32,908 nucleotides of DNA, from the NCBI GenBank assembly GCA_947305805.1, contig CAMZEM010000009.1, positions 1 to 32,908 of the forward strand. The letters run 5' to 3'. The translations under genes were made by a program, and so were the position numbers. Within the stretch, counting starts at the first letter, position 1. The number at the start of each line of letters is the position of its first letter. The notes below the pieces were generated by a model that worked only from the letters and a program-made list of their open reading frames with translations, was not told the origin of the DNA and did no database searches. Source of the DNA: an uncultured Clostridia bacterium (GTDB taxonomy: Bacteria > Bacillota > Clostridia > Oscillospirales > UBA644). This document shows, one piece after another, positions 21,014 to 32,908 of this stretch.

Positions 21014-22564
21014 ATGCTGCAAGTTAAATCACTTACAATCACGCAGAAAAAAGACCTTAGAACGCTTATTAAAGACTTTAACCTGACGCTTAACCGCGGC
21101 GACAAAGCCGTGATTATAGGAGAAGAGGGCAACGGAAAATCCACGCTTTTAAAATGGATTTACAGTCCGTCTCTTATTTCGGATTACGCAGATGCAGACG
21201 GGATACGAACGACACAGGGCGAAGTGATCGGATATCTGCCGCAGGAACTTGCCGAAAACGACAAAGAAAAAACGGTTGCCGAATTTTTTACAGATACAGG
21301 TGCTTTTGACGAAGGGTATTCGGAAGATTTATACAGAGTTGCAGCGGAAATGGGTTTTTCCGATACGCTGATTTATTCTGACCGTAAAATGAATTCGCTT
21401 TCGGGCGGTGAACGCGTTAAGATACAGATGGCGGGCATACTGCTTTCCTCGCCCGACATTCTGCTTCTTGACGAACCCTCAAACGATATCGATCTTACAA
21501 CGCTTCGCTGGCTTGAAAACACAATCAACGGCTTTTCCGGCGCGGTTTTGTATATTTCCCACGATGAAACGCTTATTGAGCGCACGGCAAACAGGGTAAT
21601 ATTGCTTGAACACCTCAGGCATAAATCCGTTGCGCGGGCAACCGTTGCAAACGTTCCTTTTGCCGCCTTTGTCGAAGAACGAAAAAGAACGTTTGATAAT
21701 CAGGAACGCGAAGCGTTAAACGAACGGCGCGAAGAGAAAAAGGCACTGGAAAAATTCCGCCGTATCGAACAGGCTGTGGAATCGGATCTGAACAGTATTT
21801 CAAGAAGAAATCCGTCGGGCGGAAGACTTCTTAAAAAGAAGATGAAAGCAGTAAAGTCCATGGAGCGGCGATACGAAAGAGAGCACGGCGAAATGACAGA
21901 GCTGCCCGAAACGGAGTCTGCAATCACGGTACGTTTTTCGCGTCAGAAGGCAATTCCGTCGGGGAAAACGGTAGCCGATTTCTCTTTCCCTCAACTGAAA
22001 ATACCGGACGGAACAGTAATTGCAAAAGACATCTGTTTTACCGTTAAAGGTCCCGAAAAAATCTGTATTGTCGGCGCAAACGGAACGGGGAAAACGACTC
22101 TTATAAGAAAAATCGCAAAAGAGCTGGCTACAAGAACCGATATTTCGGTATGCTATATGTCGCAAAACTACGAGGAAACGCTTCCTTATGATTTAACGCC
22201 TACAGAATATCTTGCCCCTTCGGGCAGCAAAGACGACGTTACTACCGCAAGAACGTTTCTCGGTTCGATGAACTATACCGCAGAAGAGATGTTTCACCCA
22301 ATAAAAGAGCTTTCGGGCGGGCAGAAAGCGAAGCTGTTTTTTTTGAAAATCAGCGTTTGCGAAACCGACGTGCTTATTCTTGACGAACCGACAAGAAATC
22401 TTTCGCCTCTGTCGGGGCCGGAAGTGCGGAAAATACTCAAACAGTTTCCCGGAGCCATAATAAGCGTTTCGCACGACAGAAAATATATTTCGGAAGTCTG
22501 CGATAAAGTATACGAATTGACCGAAGAAGGATTAAAACGGACGGATATTGCAAAAACGCTCTGA
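21014..22564 (+). CDS. ABC-F family ATPase
   Basis: Two NBDs: GEEGNGKST...LSGGERVKIQMAGILLSSPDILLLDEPSNDIDL and GANGTGKTT...LSGGQKAKLFFLKISVCETDVLILDEPTRNLSPLSG; no TM; charged linker. Confidence 0.92.
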   Translation: MLQVKSLTITQKKDLRTLIKDFNLTLNRGDKAVIIGEEGNGKSTLLKWIYSPSLISDYADADGIRTTQGEVIGYLPQELAENDKEKTVAEFFTDTGAFDEGYSEDLYRVAAEMGFSDTLIYSDRKMNSLSGGERVKIQMAGILLSSPDILLLDEPSNDIDLTTLRWLENTINGFSGAVLYISHDETLIERTANRVILLEHLRHKSVARATVANVPFAAFVEERKRTFDNQEREALNERREEKKALEKFRRIEQAVESDLNSISRRNPSGGRLLKKKMKAVKSMERRYEREHGEMTELPETESAITVRFSRQKAIPSGKTVADFSFPQLKIPDGTVIAKDICFTVKGPEKICIVGANGTGKTTLIRKIAKELATRTDISVCYMSQNYEETLPYDLTPTEYLAPSGSKDDVTTARTFLGSMNYTAEEMFHPIKELSGGQKAKLFFLKISVCETDVLILDEPTRNLSPLSGPEVRKILKQFPGAIISVSHDRKYISEVCDKVYELTEEGLKRTDIAKTL

Positions 22565-24770: not shown

Positions 24771-25358
24771 TCATCTGCCGTACGTTTTTATAATCTCCTC
24801 TGCAACAAGGCGTTTCTGTATGCAGCGGTCCATTGCCTGTTTTTCTATATAACGGTGTGCGTCAGCCTCGTTCATTTTAAGCTCGGATATAAGAAGCAGT
24901 TTCGCGCGGTTTACTGTTCTGATTTCATCCATCTTCTGTTCGACGGATATAACTGTTTTCTCTGTCTGACGCAGGCGCTCACGCGCGCTTGCAAGCCAGT
25001 CCAGAGCGAGACTCATGGAAGATTTTGATATCGGTCTGGCGATGAGGAACACGCCGAATTCGGCGGATCTGTCAAAAAACTCCGCATACTGTTCAGATCG
25101 CACCAGAAGCAGCACGACGGTATTTTTTCTGCCTCCCGCGTCGATCGAGAAGCGCATTCCGTCCTCGTCCGGCAAGGGAGAGTTGACTATTACGAAATCA
25201 TAGTCCCTCTCCGACAGAGCGCGTTTTGCAGATGAGATGTTCCCGACTGTTCTCACCGGATCGTATCTCGAAGAAGGGAACATTCCGGCAAGACCGCTGT
25301 TGAGACTTGCAGACGCGGAAACAATAAGAACGCTGTATATCCGCTCTTTCAGACTCAT
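24771..25358 (-). CDS. ANTAR-domain RNA-binding antiterminator with atypical receiver domain
   Basis: Receiver-like N-terminus, coiled coil, C-terminal RAKLLLISELKMNEADAHRYIEKQAMDRCIQKRLVAEEII (ANTAR); last gene after glnA. Confidence 0.88.
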   Translation of the reverse strand: MSLKERIYSVLIVSASASLNSGLAGMFPSSRYDPVRTVGNISSAKRALSERDYDFVIVNSPLPDEDGMRFSIDAGGRKNTVVLLLVRSEQYAEFFDRSAEFGVFLIARPISKSSMSLALDWLASARERLRQTEKTVISVEQKMDEIRTVNRAKLLLISELKMNEADAHRYIEKQAMDRCIQKRLVAEEIIKTYGR

Positions 25359-25393: not shown

Positions 25394-26599
25394 TTATTTG
25401 CAGTATATATCAATGATATCTGAAGGCAGATGTTCTTTTATAAATCCGCCGGAACATGCCGCTTTGTGCGCTTCCGCAAGATTCTGAGGGAGCTTTTTCA
25501 GCGATTCGAGCACGGATGTCTCTGCGCTGAAAAGATTTATATCTTCGGGATCGGGCAGTACGGTCCCTTTTTTTATTCCGTCAAGTCCGGCATAGATAAT
25601 AAGCGCGAACGCAAGGTAAGGATTTGCAGTCGGATCCGGCGAGCGCAGTTCGGCGCGGCGGTATTCCCCCACAGCCGCCGGAACGCGTATAAGCTGGGAA
25701 CGGTTTTCGTGAGACCAGGAGATGTAGACGGGTGCTTTGTTTCTGCCGAGGCGGAGGTAAGAATCCGCGGTAGGATTCAGAAAAGCGGTCATTTCGCCCA
25801 CATGGTCCAGTATACCCGCTATCATGCCCCGAAGAACGCCGTCATCATGCGGTCTTACGGAAAGATTGACATGAAACCCGTTGCCCGGTCTGTCAATTAT
25901 GGGCTTTGGCGAAAAGTCGGCGAATAGTCCGTTGCGGTGCGCCACAGTCCTTACAACGGTCCGGAACGTGCAGGCATTGTCTGCTGCGTTCAGTGCGTCC
26001 GAATATCTGAAATCGATCTCGTTCTGTCCCGGGCCCTCCTCATGGTGCGAGCTCTCGGGCTGTATTCCCATCTGTTCAAGTGTCAGGCAGATCTCTCTGC
26101 GGATGTTTTCGCCTTTGTCTGCCGGAGCGATATCCATGTATCCCGCCCTGTCATACGGTTTATCGGTTTTTTCACCGTTTTCGTCAAGCTCGAAAAGATA
26201 GAACTCCTGCTCTGCACCGAAATAAAACGTATACCCCTCCGAAGCCGCTTCTTTCACGGCTTTTTTCAGCAGACTTCTCGTGTCGTATTCGAACGGAGTG
26301 CCGTCAGGATACGTTATATCGCAGAACATACGCACTACGCGCCCGTGTTCGGGACGCCACGGAAGGGGAACAAGCGTATCCGGTTCCGGGTGCAGAAAAA
26401 GATCGGAATGTGCCTCATCTCCGAATCCCGAAATCGCGGACGCATCGAATGCAATGCCGTAATCGAATGCACGGCCGAGTTCATCGGGCATGATGGAAAT
26501 GTTTTTCTGCTTCCCGAAAACGTCGCAGAAAGCAAGACGTATGAATTTGACGTCCTCCTCGGCGACATATTGCATTACTTCTTCTTTTGAGTAATTCAT
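25394..26599 (-). CDS. glnA: Glutamine synthetase, type I (short form)
   Basis: DVKFIRLAFCDVFGKQKNISIMP; GAEQEFYLFE; HHEEGPGQNEIDFRY; NGFHVNLS; SYLRLGRNKAPVYISWSHENRSQLIRVP; start at ATG with AGGAGG RBS. Confidence 0.95.
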   Translation of the reverse strand: MNYSKEEVMQYVAEEDVKFIRLAFCDVFGKQKNISIMPDELGRAFDYGIAFDASAISGFGDEAHSDLFLHPEPDTLVPLPWRPEHGRVVRMFCDITYPDGTPFEYDTRSLLKKAVKEAASEGYTFYFGAEQEFYLFELDENGEKTDKPYDRAGYMDIAPADKGENIRREICLTLEQMGIQPESSHHEEGPGQNEIDFRYSDALNAADNACTFRTVVRTVAHRNGLFADFSPKPIIDRPGNGFHVNLSVRPHDDGVLRGMIAGILDHVGEMTAFLNPTADSYLRLGRNKAPVYISWSHENRSQLIRVPAAVGEYRRAELRSPDPTANPYLAFALIIYAGLDGIKKGTVLPDPEDINLFSAETSVLESLKKLPQNLAEAHKAACSGGFIKEHLPSDIIDIYCK

Positions 26600-26612
26600 A
26601 AAAACCTCCTGA

Positions 26613-27332
26613 TCAGTTGGGTACGTAAAGCCGTTTGTACGGGTTTCCGCTGTCCGGCGTAACAACGGTGAACGCGCAATCCATGATCGTTTCCGCGTCA
26701 TCTCCGAACAGTCTGCAGTATTCCTCCACATAATCTCTTGTTTCTCTCAGATCTTCGGCAGACGCCGGTCTTGCCGTCACCTGGTCCGGGAAGTTTATTC
26801 CTTTGCAGTCGGAGCGGAGAATCATTTTTCCTCCGTGCATTCCCGTGCACGGGAAATTGCCCACTATACGCCTTTCGCTTTCCGTAAGGCCGAGCACTAC
26901 GATGACTCCGCCTGCCTGGTATTCCCCGAGAAAACTTCCCGTCTTTCCGCCTATTATCATAAGGGGTATCTTTTCCCTGTATGCTTTCATGTGAATGCCG
27001 GCGCGGTATCCCGCGTCTCCCTTAACTATGATTCTGCCGCCTCTCATGGCGTATCCGGCAGCGTCGCCCACATTTCCGTATATGGCAATACTGCCCTCGT
27101 TCATGGTATCTCCCACGGCGTCCTGCGCATTGCCGTCCGTGATGACGGTCGCCCCGTTGAGATACGCACCGAGAGCGTTTCCCGGTGTGCCGCTGATACG
27201 AACGGTAATTCCTGCCATTCCGGCAGCTATAAAGCGCTGTCCCAGACAGTTGATTATTTCGTATTCGCTCTCGCCGCCGCGCAGCTTCTCGTTTATCTCG
27301 CGGTAGTTCATATTGTCGGCATCTATTCTCAT
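26613..27332 (-). CDS. Glutamate synthase GXGXG domain subunit (GltB3-like)
   Basis: GTPGNALGAYLNGATVITDGNAQDAVGDTMNEGSIAIYGNVGDAAGYAMRGGRIIVKGDAGYRAGIHMK beta-helix repeats. Confidence 0.92.
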   Translation of the reverse strand: MRIDADNMNYREINEKLRGGESEYEIINCLGQRFIAAGMAGITVRISGTPGNALGAYLNGATVITDGNAQDAVGDTMNEGSIAIYGNVGDAAGYAMRGGRIIVKGDAGYRAGIHMKAYREKIPLMIIGGKTGSFLGEYQAGGVIVVLGLTESERRIVGNFPCTGMHGGKMILRSDCKGINFPDQVTARPASAEDLRETRDYVEEYCRLFGDDAETIMDCAFTVVTPDSGNPYKRLYVPN

Positions 27333-27333
27333 A

Positions 27334-28566
27334 TTATACCACACCTCCGAACTTTTGTCTACGGATTTCGGATGAAAAAACAGAACTTGACGCTGTTTTT
27401 TTAGAAGATTCGAAATCAATCGTATTAAGAGGCACTCTGTTCCTGATAAGCGACGTGTAAATACCTGCCCTGACTGTATCCCCTATAATGATGAATCCTT
27501 TAAGATATCCTTCTTTGACGAAGAACCTCTTTACAGAGTCCCCTTCTCTGACCTCGGAATATTCTCCCTCGTATGTGCCTGCGGTCATTATATGAAGCCC
27601 GAAAAATCCGATCGAGTTCATCGGTATGGCCTTGTCAAAAACACCGTCGCCTCCTGCCATATTTACGCCGGCAGTATACCCCTGCATATACGCGTTGGGC
27701 ATTATTGCCAGCACGCGCTTTGCTCCGAGAGAGATATCGTTGCCTTCGGCGCAGTCGCCCGCGGCATATATTCCGTCCAGAGACGTTTTCATCCGCTCAT
27801 CAACGACTATGCCCCTGTTCACCTCGCCTCCGGCGTTTTTAACAAGAGCCGTCTTCGCTCTGACACCGACAGCAAGTATGAGTATGTCGAAACCGACCGT
27901 TGCACCGCTTTTCATATACGCCGTGTTACCGTCGAATCTGACTGCGCTGTCGCCGAGCATGAATCTGATGCCCTTCTTTTCGAGATGATTTTGGACTGTG
28001 CCGGCACACTCCGCGTCAAGGATGCTTGAAAGCACTCTGTCCGCAAGGTCGCACACCGTTATGCTGGCCACTCTGCCGTATATGCCTTCTGCGCATTTAA
28101 GGCCAATAAGTCCCGCTCCCACTATGAGCACCCTTGCGGTGTCACAAAGTTTCTTTTCAATTTCGAGCGCGTCGTCGAGTGTCATGAACGAAAATCTGTT
28201 CTCCACCGTTTCCAGTCCTTCGAAAGGGGGAACGAAAGGCGACGAGCCTGTTGCAACGCAGAAAGCGTCGTATGAAATAATCCTGCCGCTGTCGGTGGTC
28301 ACGGTCTTCGCTGAAGGATCTGCGCCTGAAGCCTTCTCCCCGTAAAGCACCTCGCACCCGTTTCTTTCGTAGAAGCCGGCATCGCGGTATCTCATGCGTT
28401 CGGTATCGGTTTTTCCCTCAAGATAGTATGATATGAGAGGTCTTGAGTAAACATGATGCTTTTCCGCGGAAATCACGGTTATCTTTCCGGTTCTGTCGAT
28501 GCTTCGTATTCCTTCGATGCATCCGACCGCGGCGGCTCCGTTGCCCGCTATGACATAGTTTCTCAT
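27334..28566 (-). CDS. NAD(P)/FAD-dependent oxidoreductase
   Basis: MRNYVIAGNGAAAVGCIEGIR Rossmann; VLIVGAGLIGLKCAEGIYG; DGIYAAGDCAEG. Confidence 0.93.
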   Translation of the reverse strand: MRNYVIAGNGAAAVGCIEGIRSIDRTGKITVISAEKHHVYSRPLISYYLEGKTDTERMRYRDAGFYERNGCEVLYGEKASGADPSAKTVTTDSGRIISYDAFCVATGSSPFVPPFEGLETVENRFSFMTLDDALEIEKKLCDTARVLIVGAGLIGLKCAEGIYGRVASITVCDLADRVLSSILDAECAGTVQNHLEKKGIRFMLGDSAVRFDGNTAYMKSGATVGFDILILAVGVRAKTALVKNAGGEVNRGIVVDERMKTSLDGIYAAGDCAEGNDISLGAKRVLAIMPNAYMQGYTAGVNMAGGDGVFDKAIPMNSIGFFGLHIMTAGTYEGEYSEVREGDSVKRFFVKEGYLKGFIIIGDTVRAGIYTSLIRNRVPLNTIDFESSKKTASSSVFSSEIRRQKFGGVV

Positions 28567-29000
28567 TCAGCCTCTCCCCTTTCCTCGTAAACTATAGCTC
28601 TGTTAGGACATCCGGTTACGCACGCCGGAGCGCCGCACGTGTTGTTGAGACAAAGCTCGCATTTCTGCATTGCGCCGTCTTCGCCCGGTGCAAGAGCTCC
28701 GTAAGGGCAGACAAGAACGCATGTAAGGCATCCGACGCACTTCGTCCTTTCAATGCAGACAACGCCGTCCTTTTTTGAAATTGCACCTGCAATGCAGCTC
28801 TTGACGCATATCGGATCCTCACAGTGGCGGCAGGAGACCGCAAAAGTAATTTTGTCATCGCCCTCCACATGGATACGGGGGAATATCTTTTTACCCCTGA
28901 GAGCTGTAATGCTCCTGAATCCGGAATTGGCAAACGCACAGTTGTATTCGCACAGATGGCACCCAAGGCACCATTCTTCGTTGACATAGACTCTTTTCAT
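28563..29000 (-). CDS. 4Fe-4S dicluster/polyferredoxin electron-transfer protein
   Basis: CxxCxxC..C motifs: CLGCHLCEYNC, CRHCEDPICVKSC, CVGCLTCVLVCP, CELCLNNTCGAPACVTGCP; 4-nt ATGA overlap with the next gene. Confidence 0.93.
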   Translation of the reverse strand: MKRVYVNEEWCLGCHLCEYNCAFANSGFRSITALRGKKIFPRIHVEGDDKITFAVSCRHCEDPICVKSCIAGAISKKDGVVCIERTKCVGCLTCVLVCPYGALAPGEDGAMQKCELCLNNTCGAPACVTGCPNRAIVYEERGEAE

Positions 29001-29002
29001 AT

Positions 29003-30508
29003 TTATTCTCCCGCATGAGATATGCCGAGTATCCCAAGTTCCTTTTCTGTCATTCCTACTCCGCGCAGCATAAGACGGTTGCCTCTGAGAGCCTCAATGG
29101 AGTTTATGCCCATTCCGCCCATGATTTCCATGATCTCGTGTTTCCATGCCGTCATGAGATTAATAAGACGCGCGCTGCCGATGTCGGGATTGAGGCGCTT
29201 GACGAGGTCGGGACGCTGTGTGGCGATGCCCCAGTTGCATTTACCGCTCTGGCAGGTTCTGCAGAGATGACATCCGAGAGCGAGAACCGCCGCTGTGGCG
29301 ATATAGCACGCATCGGCGCCAAGCGCCACCGCCTTTACGACGTCTGCCGCGCTGCGTATCGAACCGCCTACAACGAGCGAAACGTTGTTTCTGATGCCCT
29401 CGTCGCGGAGACGCTGATCGACTGCCGCGAGAGCGAGCTCAATCGGAATACCCACATTGTCCCTTATCCTGGTAGGCGCGGCGCCCGTGCCTCCGCGGAA
29501 TCCGTCTATGGCTATTATATCCGCTCCGCTTCGTGCAATGCCGCTGGCAATTGCCGCAATATTGTGAACCGCGGCGACTTTGACTATTATCGGTTTTTTG
29601 TATTCGGTGGCTTCTTTAAGAGAGAAAACGAGCTGACGCAGGTCCTCAATTGAATATATGTCATGATGAGGTGCGGGAGAGATCGCGTCCGAACCTTCGG
29701 GAATCATCCTTGTGCGCGAAACGTCTCCGACTATCTTCGCTCCGGGAAGATGTCCGCCTATACCGGGCTTCGCGCCCTGCCCCATTTTAATCTCTATGGC
29801 GGCGCCAGCCTTGAGGTAGTCCTCGTGCACGCCGAAACGTCCGCTTGCAACCTGAACTATCGTGTTTTTCCCGTATTTATAGAAATCCTCGTGAAGCCCG
29901 CCCTCGCCGGTGTTGTAAAGCAGCCCCAGTTCGGTTGCCGCCCTCGCGAGAGAGGCGTGGGCATTGTAGCTTATTGAACCGTAGCTCATAGCCGAGAACA
30001 TGACGGGCATTTCAATATCTATCTGAGGAGAGAGATCGCATATAATTCTGTCTTCGGAGTCACGGCTGATTTTTGACGGCTTCTTGCCGAGCGAGACCTT
30101 CGTTTCCATAGGCTCGCGAAGCGGATCAATTGACGGATTCGTAACCTGGGACGCATTTATAAGTATACGGTCCCAGTATACGGGCAGAGGATTGGGGTTA
30201 CCCATCGATGACAGCAGTACCCCGCCGCTTCCCGCCTGTCTGTATATCTCCTTTACGGTGCTGTCCTGCCAGTTCGCATTCTCCCTGAGCCGGCAGTCGC
30301 TCTTCACTATCTTCAGCGCTCTTGAGGGACAGAGAGACACGCATCTCTGACAGTTGACGCACTTTGTCTCATCCGATACCATGACGCCGCGTTCGGGATC
30401 GAATGAATGCACCTCGTTGGCGCACTGTCTCTCGCATACGCGGCACGCTATGCATCTTTCCTCATTTCTGACGACTTCAAATTCAGGATATATAAACTCG
30501 ATACCCAT
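29003..30508 (-). CDS. Glutamate synthase FMN-binding subunit with N-terminal 2x[4Fe-4S] ferredoxin domain (GltB2-like)
   Basis: CIACRVCERQC, CVNCQRCVSLCP; GMGQGAKPGIGGHLPGAKI-type block (KMGQGAKPGIGGHLPGAKIVGDV); IIAIDGFRGGTGAAPT; CRTCQSGKCNWGIATQ. Confidence 0.95.
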   Translation of the reverse strand: MGIEFIYPEFEVVRNEERCIACRVCERQCANEVHSFDPERGVMVSDETKCVNCQRCVSLCPSRALKIVKSDCRLRENANWQDSTVKEIYRQAGSGGVLLSSMGNPNPLPVYWDRILINASQVTNPSIDPLREPMETKVSLGKKPSKISRDSEDRIICDLSPQIDIEMPVMFSAMSYGSISYNAHASLARAATELGLLYNTGEGGLHEDFYKYGKNTIVQVASGRFGVHEDYLKAGAAIEIKMGQGAKPGIGGHLPGAKIVGDVSRTRMIPEGSDAISPAPHHDIYSIEDLRQLVFSLKEATEYKKPIIVKVAAVHNIAAIASGIARSGADIIAIDGFRGGTGAAPTRIRDNVGIPIELALAAVDQRLRDEGIRNNVSLVVGGSIRSAADVVKAVALGADACYIATAAVLALGCHLCRTCQSGKCNWGIATQRPDLVKRLNPDIGSARLINLMTAWKHEIMEIMGGMGINSIEALRGNRLMLRGVGMTEKELGILGISHAGE

Positions 30509-30509
30509 A

Positions 30510-31607
30510 TCAGTATGCCCCCTCTTGCACTCTTACTATGAAAGGCTCTCCGCCCGACGGGGCAAATATCCGCTCCGCATCCGGTTCCATCATCCTTATT
30601 GCGGATTCCTCGCTTGCCACGAAGACCCTGTCTCCCTTTTCGCCGACAACCATAGATCTCAGTTTCAGTCGGTCGTTTAGAGCCATCAGGCCGCCGTCGA
30701 ACCCGAGTATTATCGAGAACGGTCCCGTAATGAGCAGGCTCGGGAAGACCTTGCGCAGATATGTAAGCTTTCTTTTCTCGTATTCGTCTTCCTTTCCGGC
30801 GATAGTGCTCCAGAAAGGAGCCGCAATAACGTTTGCAGACTCTTCAAGAGTCAGTCCCTGAACGCGTAAGAGATAATCGAGAATGTACGTTATTACTTCG
30901 GTATCCGTCTGAAGATTGCACTTGTATCCGAACATCTCTATGAATCTGCGGTTCGCGTCGTATGAGGATATCTCGCCGTTGTGAACAACCGATCTGTCGA
31001 GAAGGGTGAACGGATGAGCGCCGCCCCACCATCCGGGCGTGTTTGTAGGGTAGCGTCCGTGAGCGGTCCAGCTGTAACCTTCGTATTCATCGAGCCGGTA
31101 ATACAAACCTACGTCCTCGGGGAAACCGACGGCTTTGAACGTACCCATGTTCTTTCCGCTTGAGAACACATACGCGCCTTTCATCTCGGTGTTTATTTTC
31201 ATAACCGTTCTGACAACGTATTCCCGCTCATCGAGCTGAAGGTCGGCGAGTCTGGACTTAAGCGGCGAAACGAAATATCTCCATATCACGGGTTCGTCGG
31301 TGATTTCGGGCATTTTCCTTGTAGGAATCAGCTCGCCCTTCACCACTTCGAATCCCTCTTTCAGAAACGCCTCGCATGCCTTTCTCGTATCTCTGCAATC
31401 GAAAAAGAAATGGAAAGCGTAAAGATCCCTGTATTCAGGGTATATGCCGTAGCCGGCAAACCCTCCTCCGAGTCCGTTGGAACGATCGTGCATCGGTTTC
31501 ATCGCGGAGATTATCTTTTCCGCGGTCATACGTTCCCCGGATCTTGATATCACCGCTGCAACGGCGCAGCCTGACGGGATACGGATATCTTCTTCAAATG
31601 CTCTCAT
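30510..31607 (-). CDS. Class II glutamine amidotransferase subunit of glutamate synthase (GltB1-like)
   Basis: SGCAVAAVISRSG; WTAHGRYPTNTPGWWGGAHPFTLLDRSVVHNGEISSYDANRRFIE; TDTEVITYILDYL. Confidence 0.93.
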   Translation of the reverse strand: MRAFEEDIRIPSGCAVAAVISRSGERMTAEKIISAMKPMHDRSNGLGGGFAGYGIYPEYRDLYAFHFFFDCRDTRKACEAFLKEGFEVVKGELIPTRKMPEITDEPVIWRYFVSPLKSRLADLQLDEREYVVRTVMKINTEMKGAYVFSSGKNMGTFKAVGFPEDVGLYYRLDEYEGYSWTAHGRYPTNTPGWWGGAHPFTLLDRSVVHNGEISSYDANRRFIEMFGYKCNLQTDTEVITYILDYLLRVQGLTLEESANVIAAPFWSTIAGKEDEYEKRKLTYLRKVFPSLLITGPFSIILGFDGGLMALNDRLKLRSMVVGEKGDRVFVASEESAIRMMEPDAERIFAPSGGEPFIVRVQEGAY

Positions 31608-31645
31608 TATATGTATATCCTTTCGTTCTGATGACCTGAAAAAAG

Positions 31646-31701
31646 AAAAAAGGCGCTATTCCAGACGGGATTAACCCGTTTGAAATGAACGCCTTTGCTC
31701 A
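31646..31701 (-). terminator. Leader hairpin/terminator of the glutamate synthase operon (putative ANTAR-controlled attenuator)
   Basis: Minus-strand GCAAAGGCG...ACGGG-TTAAT-CCCGT...GCGCC followed by TTTTTTCTTTTTT, between promoter and gltB1-like start. Confidence 0.65.
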
Positions 31702-31710
31702 TTTTTCAGT

Positions 31711-31739
31711 ATTATACTCTTCAAGTACCGTTTTGTCAA
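31711..31739 (-). promoter_or_regulatory. sigma-A promoter on minus strand (TTGACA-17-TATAAT) for the glutamate synthase operon
   Basis: Plus-strand ATTATA 31711-31716 and TGTCAA 31734-31739. Confidence 0.9.
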
Positions 31740-31800
31740 GAGCAAAATCGCGGCAAAAACGGGTTTTTGATAAATTTTTAAAAAAATTCAAAAAAGGGAC

Positions 31801-31829
31801 TTGACAAATCGCTTCCTGCGTTGTATAAT
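31801..31829 (+). promoter_or_regulatory. sigma-A promoter (TTGACA-17-TATAAT) for type III glutamine synthetase
   Basis: TTGACA 31801-31806, TATAAT 31824-31829. Confidence 0.9.
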
Positions 31830-31845
31830 GCATCACATAAAAGGC

Positions 31846-31955
31846 AAAGGCGTCTTTGAGCTTCATACTCGAAGACGCTTTATCTTTAAATTGAAATAAA
31901 ATATTAATGAAGGCAAAGGCGTCTTTCGTGCATTTATGACATGAAAGACGCCTTT
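31846..31955 (+). promoter_or_regulatory. Tandem hairpin 5' leader of type III glutamine synthetase
   Basis: Hairpin 1 GCGTCTTTGAG/CTCGAAGACGC (31850-31878); hairpin 2 AAAGGCGTCTTTC/GAAAGACGCCTTT (31915-31955); both begin GGCAAAGGCGTCTTT. Confidence 0.75.
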
Positions 31956-31978
31956 ATCATTTAGAAGGAGCAAAAAAC

Positions 31979-32908
31979 ATGAAAACAGTATCGGAATACT
32001 TCGGAGACATGGTCTTTGACGACAGAGTGATGAAAGCGACCCTTTCTGCAAAAGTATACGCTTCCCTCAAAAAGACGATTGACGAGGGCGCACAGATCGA
32101 TATAGGCGTGGCGAACGCAGTGGCGGACGCCATGAAGGACTGGGCGCTTTCAAAGGGCGCAACCCATTTCACGCACTGGTTCCAGCCGCTTACGGGCATC
32201 ACTGCCGAGAAGCACGACAGTTTCATCTCCCCGTCTCCAGACGGCGGCGTTATAATGGAATTCTCGGGCAAGGAGCTTATAAAAGGCGAGCCCGATGCGT
32301 CATCGTTCCCGTCCGGCGGCCTGCGCGCCACATTCGAGGCAAGGGGATATACCGCATGGGATCCCACGTCGTATGCATTTATAAAAGGCAGAACTCTGTG
32401 CATCCCGACTGCGTTCTGTTCATACGGAGGTCACGCTCTTGATAAGAAAACGCCTCTGCTCCGTTCAATGGAGGCTCTCAACAGGCAGTCGCTCCGCATT
32501 CTGCGCCTGTTCGGCAACGACACCGCAAAATGCGTAAGGTCTTCCGTAGGACCTGAGCAGGAGTATTTTCTCATAACAAAGGAGATGTACGATGCGCGTC
32601 CCGATCTCAAATTCACGGGAAGAACGCTGTTCGGAGCGAAACCTCCGAAAGGCCAGGAGATGGACGACCATTATTTCGGAGCTATCAAGCCGCGCGTAGC
32701 CGCGTATATGGAGGATCTGAACGACGAGCTCTGGAAACTGGGCATAATGGCAAAGACAGAGCACAACGAAGTTGCTCCCGCACAGCACGAGCTTGCTCCG
32801 ATATATACAACGACAAACGTGGCAACAGACCATAACCAGCTGACGATGGAAATCATGCAGAAAGTGGCGGCAAAGCACGGACTTGTCTGCCTGCTCCACG
32901 AAAAGCCG
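31979..32908 (+). CDS. glnN: Glutamine synthetase type III, N-terminal part (truncated by window edge)
   Basis: [103 protein letters not shown]. Confidence 0.95.

Follow-up and report, generated by a model that had tools for sequence, protein, structure and literature searches.

Probable ANTAR-type attenuators, with one hexaloop for each terminator, in divergent nitrogen-assimilation leaders of an uncultured Clostridia bacterium

Introduction

The published signature of an ANTAR target is a hexaloop, a loop of six bases in which the first is A (A1) and the fourth is G (G4). Targets of this kind have been predicted before glutamate synthase and glutamine synthetase genes (PMC3369931). In eut systems the signature occurs as a dual motif, P1 and P2, with a linker of 5-12 nt; a survey of actinobacteria allowed 2-25 nt (PMC8164766). 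For the EutV target, deletion of P1 lowered induction; a linker of 14 nt abolished function in vivo, as did an extension of 20 nt in vitro (PMC3369931, PMC8934654). In a 2022 paper on the structure of EutV with RNA, a single hexaloop was taken as the new definition of the minimal ANTAR site; the authors considered that natural single sites may exist and called for more bioinformatic work, while their model still needs two hexaloops for antitermination during transcription. This paper was the only description of a single-hexaloop ANTAR site found in our literature search; an earlier one in the NitR literature is possible.

Here we describe two divergent leaders in a 32,908-nucleotide stretch of DNA (the window) from an uncultured Clostridia bacterium (assembly GCA_947305805.1, contig CAMZEM010000009.1). 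A preliminary description, made from the letters alone, had proposed that both leaders are controlled by an ANTAR protein encoded in the same operon.

Results and discussion

Promoters and gene neighbourhood

The divergent region, positions 31608-31978, holds two perfect sigma-70-type promoters placed back to back. Transcription on the plus strand runs into a type III glutamine synthetase gene, and on the minus strand into an operon that encodes a split glutamate synthase together with a second glutamine synthetase and the ANTAR protein:

31801-31829, plus strand: promoter of the glnN leader, TTGACA-17-TATAAT, 12/12 consensus matches
31979-32908, plus strand: type III glutamine synthetase gene glnN, truncated by the window end (PF12437, E 3e-80)
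31711-31739, minus strand: promoter of the gltB leader, TTGACA-17-TATAAT, 12/12 consensus matches
30510-31607, minus strand: glutamate synthase glutaminase-domain gene (gltB1-like), first after the minus leader (PF00310)
29003-30508, minus strand: glutamate synthase core-domain gene (PF01645, E 9e-139)
26613-27419, minus strand: glutamate synthase GXGXG-domain gene (PF01493)
25394-26731, minus strand: glutamine synthetase gene (GlnA-like), candidate sensor partner (PF00120/PF03951; TIGR00653 alignment)
24771-25358, minus strand: ANTAR protein with a degenerate receiver domain, proposed antiterminator (PF03861, 48.4 bits, cut-off 27.3; phospho-Asp replaced by Asn)

Glutamate synthase is thus made up of three polypeptides (26613-31607, minus strand), with ferredoxin-like and FAD oxidoreductase genes in between. 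The real start of the GlnA-like gene is probably downstream of 26731, since the match to the GlnA model begins at residue 50. Elsewhere in the window, positions 21014-22564 on the plus strand encode an ABC-F ATPase scoring 382 bits against an NCBIfam cut-off of 380 for ribosomal-protection-like ABC-F proteins.

Motif copies and large hairpins

The motif GCAAAGGCGTY is present in three copies, one in the minus leader (31688-31698) and two in the plus leader (31844-31854 and 31913-31923). The preliminary description had placed all three a few bases downstream of the -10 boxes; the copies and the promoters are as it reported, but only two copies lie just past a -10 box, the third being 69 nt further on. 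Each copy forms the 5' side of a very stable large hairpin, as had been claimed, with folding z-scores of -6.0, -6.2 and -5.9 relative to shuffles and -8.6 for the whole plus leader. The perfect 13-bp stem reported for the second plus hairpin is likewise present. Downstream of the minus hairpin, the T-rich tract GCGCCTTTTTTCTTTTTT adjoins directly, in agreement with its reading as an intrinsic terminator before the gltB1-like gene. U-tracts of both plus hairpins are weak in this genome and strong in several relatives.

With one mismatch allowed, the motif has 8 matches in the window, against 1.46 expected from shuffles, none of 100 shuffles reaching 8. Across the genome, the bare 11-mer shows no enrichment, with 21 exact copies against 27 of a reversed control, and none of the copies fetched from outside the window carries a comparable hairpin. 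The signal is therefore the combination of motif, hairpin and promoter, not the word alone. A search of the window with Rfam gave no family at gathering score, and chance-level matches only at a loose cut-off.

The hexaloop and its competing fold

In each copy, a second, smaller hairpin arises when the bases immediately before the motif pair with those that immediately follow AAAGGC. The two in the plus leader are AAAGGC[AAAGGC]GUCUUU and GAAGGC[AAAGGC]GUCUUU (loop in brackets), and the one in the minus leader is AAAUGAGC[AAAGGC]GUUCAUUU. Positions of these hairpins and of the folds that compete with them are as follows:

31840-31857, plus strand: hexaloop hairpin 1 of the glnN leader, stem 31840-31845 / 31852-31857, loop AAAGGC 31846-31851 (sequence; stem covaries in relatives)
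31846-31881, plus strand: large hairpin 1, terminator-like and competing, covering the loop and 3' arm of hexaloop 1; U-tract weak (folding; covariation in relatives)
31909-31926, plus strand: hexaloop hairpin 2 of the glnN leader, stem 31909-31914 / 31921-31926, loop AAAGGC 31915-31920 (sequence, covariation)
31915-31955, plus strand: large hairpin 2, competing, with the perfect 13-bp lower stem; ends about 11 nt 5' of the ribosome-binding site (sequence, folding, covariation)
31683-31704, minus strand: single hexaloop hairpin of the gltB leader, AAATGAGC[AAAGGC]GTTCATTT; stem starts 6 nt past the -10 box (sequence, covariation)
31649-31696, minus strand: intrinsic-terminator hairpin of the gltB leader, competing, followed by a U-rich tract (~31635-31648) (folding, covariation)

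An ANTAR target can be defined by a six-base loop, with A1 and G4, closed by a stem of 3 bp or more; by this definition all three copies are canonical, with the loop AAAGGC and stems of 6-8 bp. The preliminary description could not confirm such a hexaloop and assigned the motif solely to the large hairpin, as its 5' arm. In fact, the loop and 3' arm of the hexaloop double as that 5' arm, so the two folds are mutually exclusive. Folding energies are -2.7 to -6.1 kcal/mol for the hexaloop and -19 to -25 kcal/mol for the large hairpin, and without protein the latter should win. The overlap of hexaloop and terminator known from ANTAR targets is accordingly found here as a shared arm with two covarying helices, followed by a U-tract that is clear at gltB and purA (see below) and weak at glnN in this genome.

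Covariation and distribution in relatives

Leaders of glnN and gltB1 were collected from relatives in the correct orientation. The element is conserved upstream of the orthologous genes, being found in 20 of 30 glnN and 22 of 24 gltB1 leaders. A gap-free alignment of 51 distinct modules shows the six pairs of the hexaloop stem to be 94% paired, with exchange among AU, UA, GC, CG and GU. Double-change cells number 74; shuffles gave 24 and slid controls no more than 16. Modules were chosen by a stem of at least 4 bp plus A1 and G4, a choice that partly accounts for the inner pairs and for the loop. Within the loop, A1 and G4 never change while the 5' arm and stem vary; this invariance is owed in part to the search pattern, which required both bases. 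The competing terminator helix also covaries, more strongly in glnN than in gltB leaders (93% and 95% paired, respectively). Both helices thus covary across many genera, and an arm held to two partners is the hallmark of a two-state switch.

An mRNA can be stabilised by a strong hairpin at its 5' end. The large hairpins might then be plain stabilisers of this sort, or unregulated terminators, with the small hairpin as a by-product, a view with which the weak U-tracts of the glnN hairpins here would agree. Nevertheless, the large hairpin has no need of the 5' arm of the hexaloop, and across genera this arm still covaries with the 3' arm. Moreover, among 80 gltB1 loci from named records (Ruminococcus albus, Massiliimalia timonensis and many rumen MAGs), none was seen that keeps the loop and terminator and has lost the 5' arm. 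We give this explanation hardly any credence and regard the hexaloop as one state of a switch.

One hexaloop per terminator

A single canonical hexaloop is present in 74 of the 80 gltB1 loci. Among the other six, locus L222 has a U-G-closed version, and none was seen in the printed stretch of the remaining five. A -10 box can be recognised in 63 loci, and in 50 of these the hexaloop stem starts 4-8 nt past it, where transcription is expected to begin; a P1 could not fit upstream. A second hexaloop near the gltB one was also considered. An extra match within 45 nt occurs in three of the 74 loci; that of L202 is the canonical element itself, and the remaining two fall at unrelated places, apparently by chance. 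Beyond this order, the gltB-type element was found in 24 sampled genomes of the class, and a single hexaloop is again seen in the 14 loci read from them.

The purA leader is a single module. The glnN leader of this genome consists of two separate hexaloop-terminator modules, each with its own competing hairpin and with a linker of 51 nt between the hexaloops. Among the 20 glnN leaders with the element, eleven have two modules, with linkers of 44-61 nt and one of 154, and nine have one within about 260 nt. In a relative (L134 in G103), two hexaloop modules precede a gdhA-like gene (glutamate dehydrogenase, identified by eye), and a further module lies ahead of glnN in the same operon.

Set against the limits known for EutV linkers and P1, these leaders fall outside the dual-motif definition of the eut type, gltB and purA having one hexaloop and glnN a pair 51 nt apart. 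Two hexaloops could nonetheless still be required if glnN is an ordinary dual target with a long linker and if, in single leaders, an ANTAR dimer bridges to a second RNA. The dual motif is the published rule, and eleven glnN leaders do have two modules. Yet the glnN linkers far exceed the lengths at which EutV failed, each glnN module has its own competing hairpin, and gltB leaders have one hexaloop in many genera and in other orders; in addition, the crystal structure rules out one dimer on both hexaloops of one RNA. A requirement for two hexaloops is thus unlikely in our judgement, and, as far as comparison of sequences can tell, a single-hexaloop variant of the ANTAR-type attenuator is the best reading of the leaders. 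The variant target class suspected in the preliminary description holds in this respect, because each terminator has a single hexaloop; the loop itself is not odd.

Targets in the genome and association with ANTAR genes

Covariance models of the glnN-type and gltB-type elements were used to look for targets in the genome of origin. With the glnN-type model, three strong places were found, two in the plus leader and one before purA (adenylosuccinate synthase), and with the gltB-type model the minus leader scores 67.7 bits. The strong targets are thus few, and all belong to metabolic genes. The third target (L113; G000 C148:1139-1199, minus strand) has one hexaloop and a terminator, and would tie purine synthesis into the same control.

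The preliminary description had also suggested a covariance-model search of related Clostridia for co-occurrence with ANTAR genes. Across 197 genomes, 110 of them with an ANTAR domain, the element tracks the ANTAR gene. Hits of the gltB-type model at E<=1e-5 occur in 42 genomes with ANTAR and in none without, and at 1e-4 in 50 with and one without (p=1e-14); the glnN-type model at 1e-3 gives 68 with and 6 without (p=1e-16), the p-values overstating independence as the counted genomes are related. At 1e-4, five genomes (G004, G005, G035, G040 and G110) have the element and no detectable ANTAR gene. A profile search for overlooked ANTAR genes in six genomes gave receiver-only matches or none, and no full ANTAR protein. 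The purA leader element is kept in the congeners G004 (C4:4247-4308, L146) and G005 (C32:3256-3317, L147), where no ANTAR gene was detected.

These five genomes, and the conserved purA leaders of G004 and G005 in particular, would be expected if attenuators of the same shape were read by a factor other than an ANTAR protein. Against such a factor stand the A1 and G4 that do not vary in a loop on a variable stem (partly by selection), the strong genome-wide association with PF03861 and the ANTAR gene in the same operon; G004 and G005, furthermore, are draft genomes, 83% and 93% complete. We consider another factor very unlikely. The proposal that the ANTAR protein would act on both leaders is strongly supported by comparison of hexaloops, covariation and co-occurrence.

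The ANTAR protein and the adjacent glutamine synthetase

The receiver domain of the ANTAR protein lacks the phospho-acceptor Asp (VIVNSPLPD, compared with VIMDVKMP in Rv1626) and the acidic pocket is lost, so that it departs from the EutV type, which has both, and is a pseudo-receiver as in AmiR. Asn59, at the phospho-Asp position, is invariant in six aligned family members. Kinase control was rejected as unlikely given this receiver. With contact positions mapped by hand from the HMMER alignment, the protein retains the EutV RNA contacts Lys149, Glu160 and Met172. It has Arg at positions 143 and 147 and, like AmiR, His where EutV has Tyr164, and it differs from EutV at Arg142, Arg168, Asn173, Arg175 and Arg177.

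Since the receiver cannot be phosphorylated in the usual way, the signal probably arrives via a partner protein. In all 55 loci with a visible ANTAR gene, the gene immediately upstream encodes a glutamine synthetase, and this adjacency makes the enzyme the leading candidate. It is suggestive of a possible enzyme-as-sensor pair of glutamine synthetase and an ANTAR protein with a dead receiver.

Proposed mode of action

The best explanation as a whole, to which we assign a probability of roughly 85%, is that both leaders are transcription attenuators run by the operon's own ANTAR protein. As each transcript starts, the small hexaloop hairpin with A1 and G4 would emerge. Unaided, its loop and 3' arm would be captured by the far stabler hairpin with its U-rich tract, and transcription would stop; this would be the state in nitrogen excess, when the ANTAR protein is presumed inactive and terminators form. 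When active, probably under nitrogen limitation, the protein would bind the emerging 5' hexaloop and the terminator could not form. Read-through would then allow transcription of glnN, of the glutamate synthase operon and, elsewhere in the genome, of purA. Positive feedback would follow because the ANTAR gene itself belongs to the regulated glutamate synthase operon. In this scheme gltB and purA would be one-hexaloop switches, and glnN would have two full switches, one after the other. Where a leader has a single hexaloop, the terminator hairpin's long apical part may give the protein more time to bind. In C. thermocellum, the expression of an ANTAR gene fell along with its ammonia-assimilation cluster (PMC4676874), which is consistent with the proposed working but not specific to it.

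Several points count against this explanation: one nearby hexaloop per terminator, whereas EutV antitermination needed P1 and a short linker (PMC3369931, PMC8934654); several EutV RNA contacts not kept; the five genomes with the element but no detectable ANTAR gene; and the weak U-tracts of the glnN hairpins in this genome.

A broader reading, which we offer tentatively and would not yet back, is that one-hexaloop attenuators are widespread at the 5' ends of nitrogen transcripts in Clostridia, that ANTAR proteins antiterminate there without the recruitment hairpin P1, and that their activity is set when the dead receiver contacts the co-encoded glutamine synthetase, which would be the nitrogen sensor for control at the RNA level. 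In any case, 74 gltB leaders together with the glnN and purA leaders provide a natural conserved set with one hexaloop per terminator, which makes the need for P1 directly testable. Natural single-hexaloop sites, whose possible existence was raised by the 2022 structural study, had not been catalogued at that time, and search models built on dual hairpins could miss them. The leaders also hint at how nitrogen control may work in rumen and gut Clostridia.

Comparison with known systems

The EutV/EutW system of the Enterococcus faecalis eut genes (PMC3369931, PMC8934654) shares with the present one the six-base loop with A1 and G4, the ANTAR output domain and a hexaloop that overlaps and excludes an intrinsic terminator. 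It differs in its paired hexaloops, P1 and P2, joined by a linker of 5-12 nt, and in a receiver that is phosphorylated, while here there is one hexaloop per terminator and a receiver without phospho-Asp. As here, ANTAR targets have been predicted before nitrogen genes such as those for glutamine synthetase and for glutamate synthase, the latter for example in Desulfotomaculum reducens (PMC3369931); they came from a search with a dual-hairpin model, which could miss leaders that have one hexaloop.

Antitermination of the amidase genes by AmiC/AmiR in Pseudomonas aeruginosa (PMC8934654; structure 1qo0) also employs an ANTAR protein with a pseudo-receiver, and His at the position of EutV Tyr164 is common to AmiR and the protein described here. 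AmiR is governed by its partner AmiC; at this locus no AmiC homologue is adjacent, and a glutamine synthetase takes that place. NitR of solvent-forming Clostridium (PMC4676874) is an antiterminator tied to glutamine synthetase and ammonia assimilation, as is proposed here, and the two systems are probably related. Finally, GlnR and the feedback-inhibited glutamine synthetase of Gram-positive bacteria (PMC9249791) offer the analogy proposed here, glutamine synthetase as nitrogen sensor for a co-encoded regulator. GlnR is a DNA-binding repressor, whereas the regulator of this locus would act on RNA.
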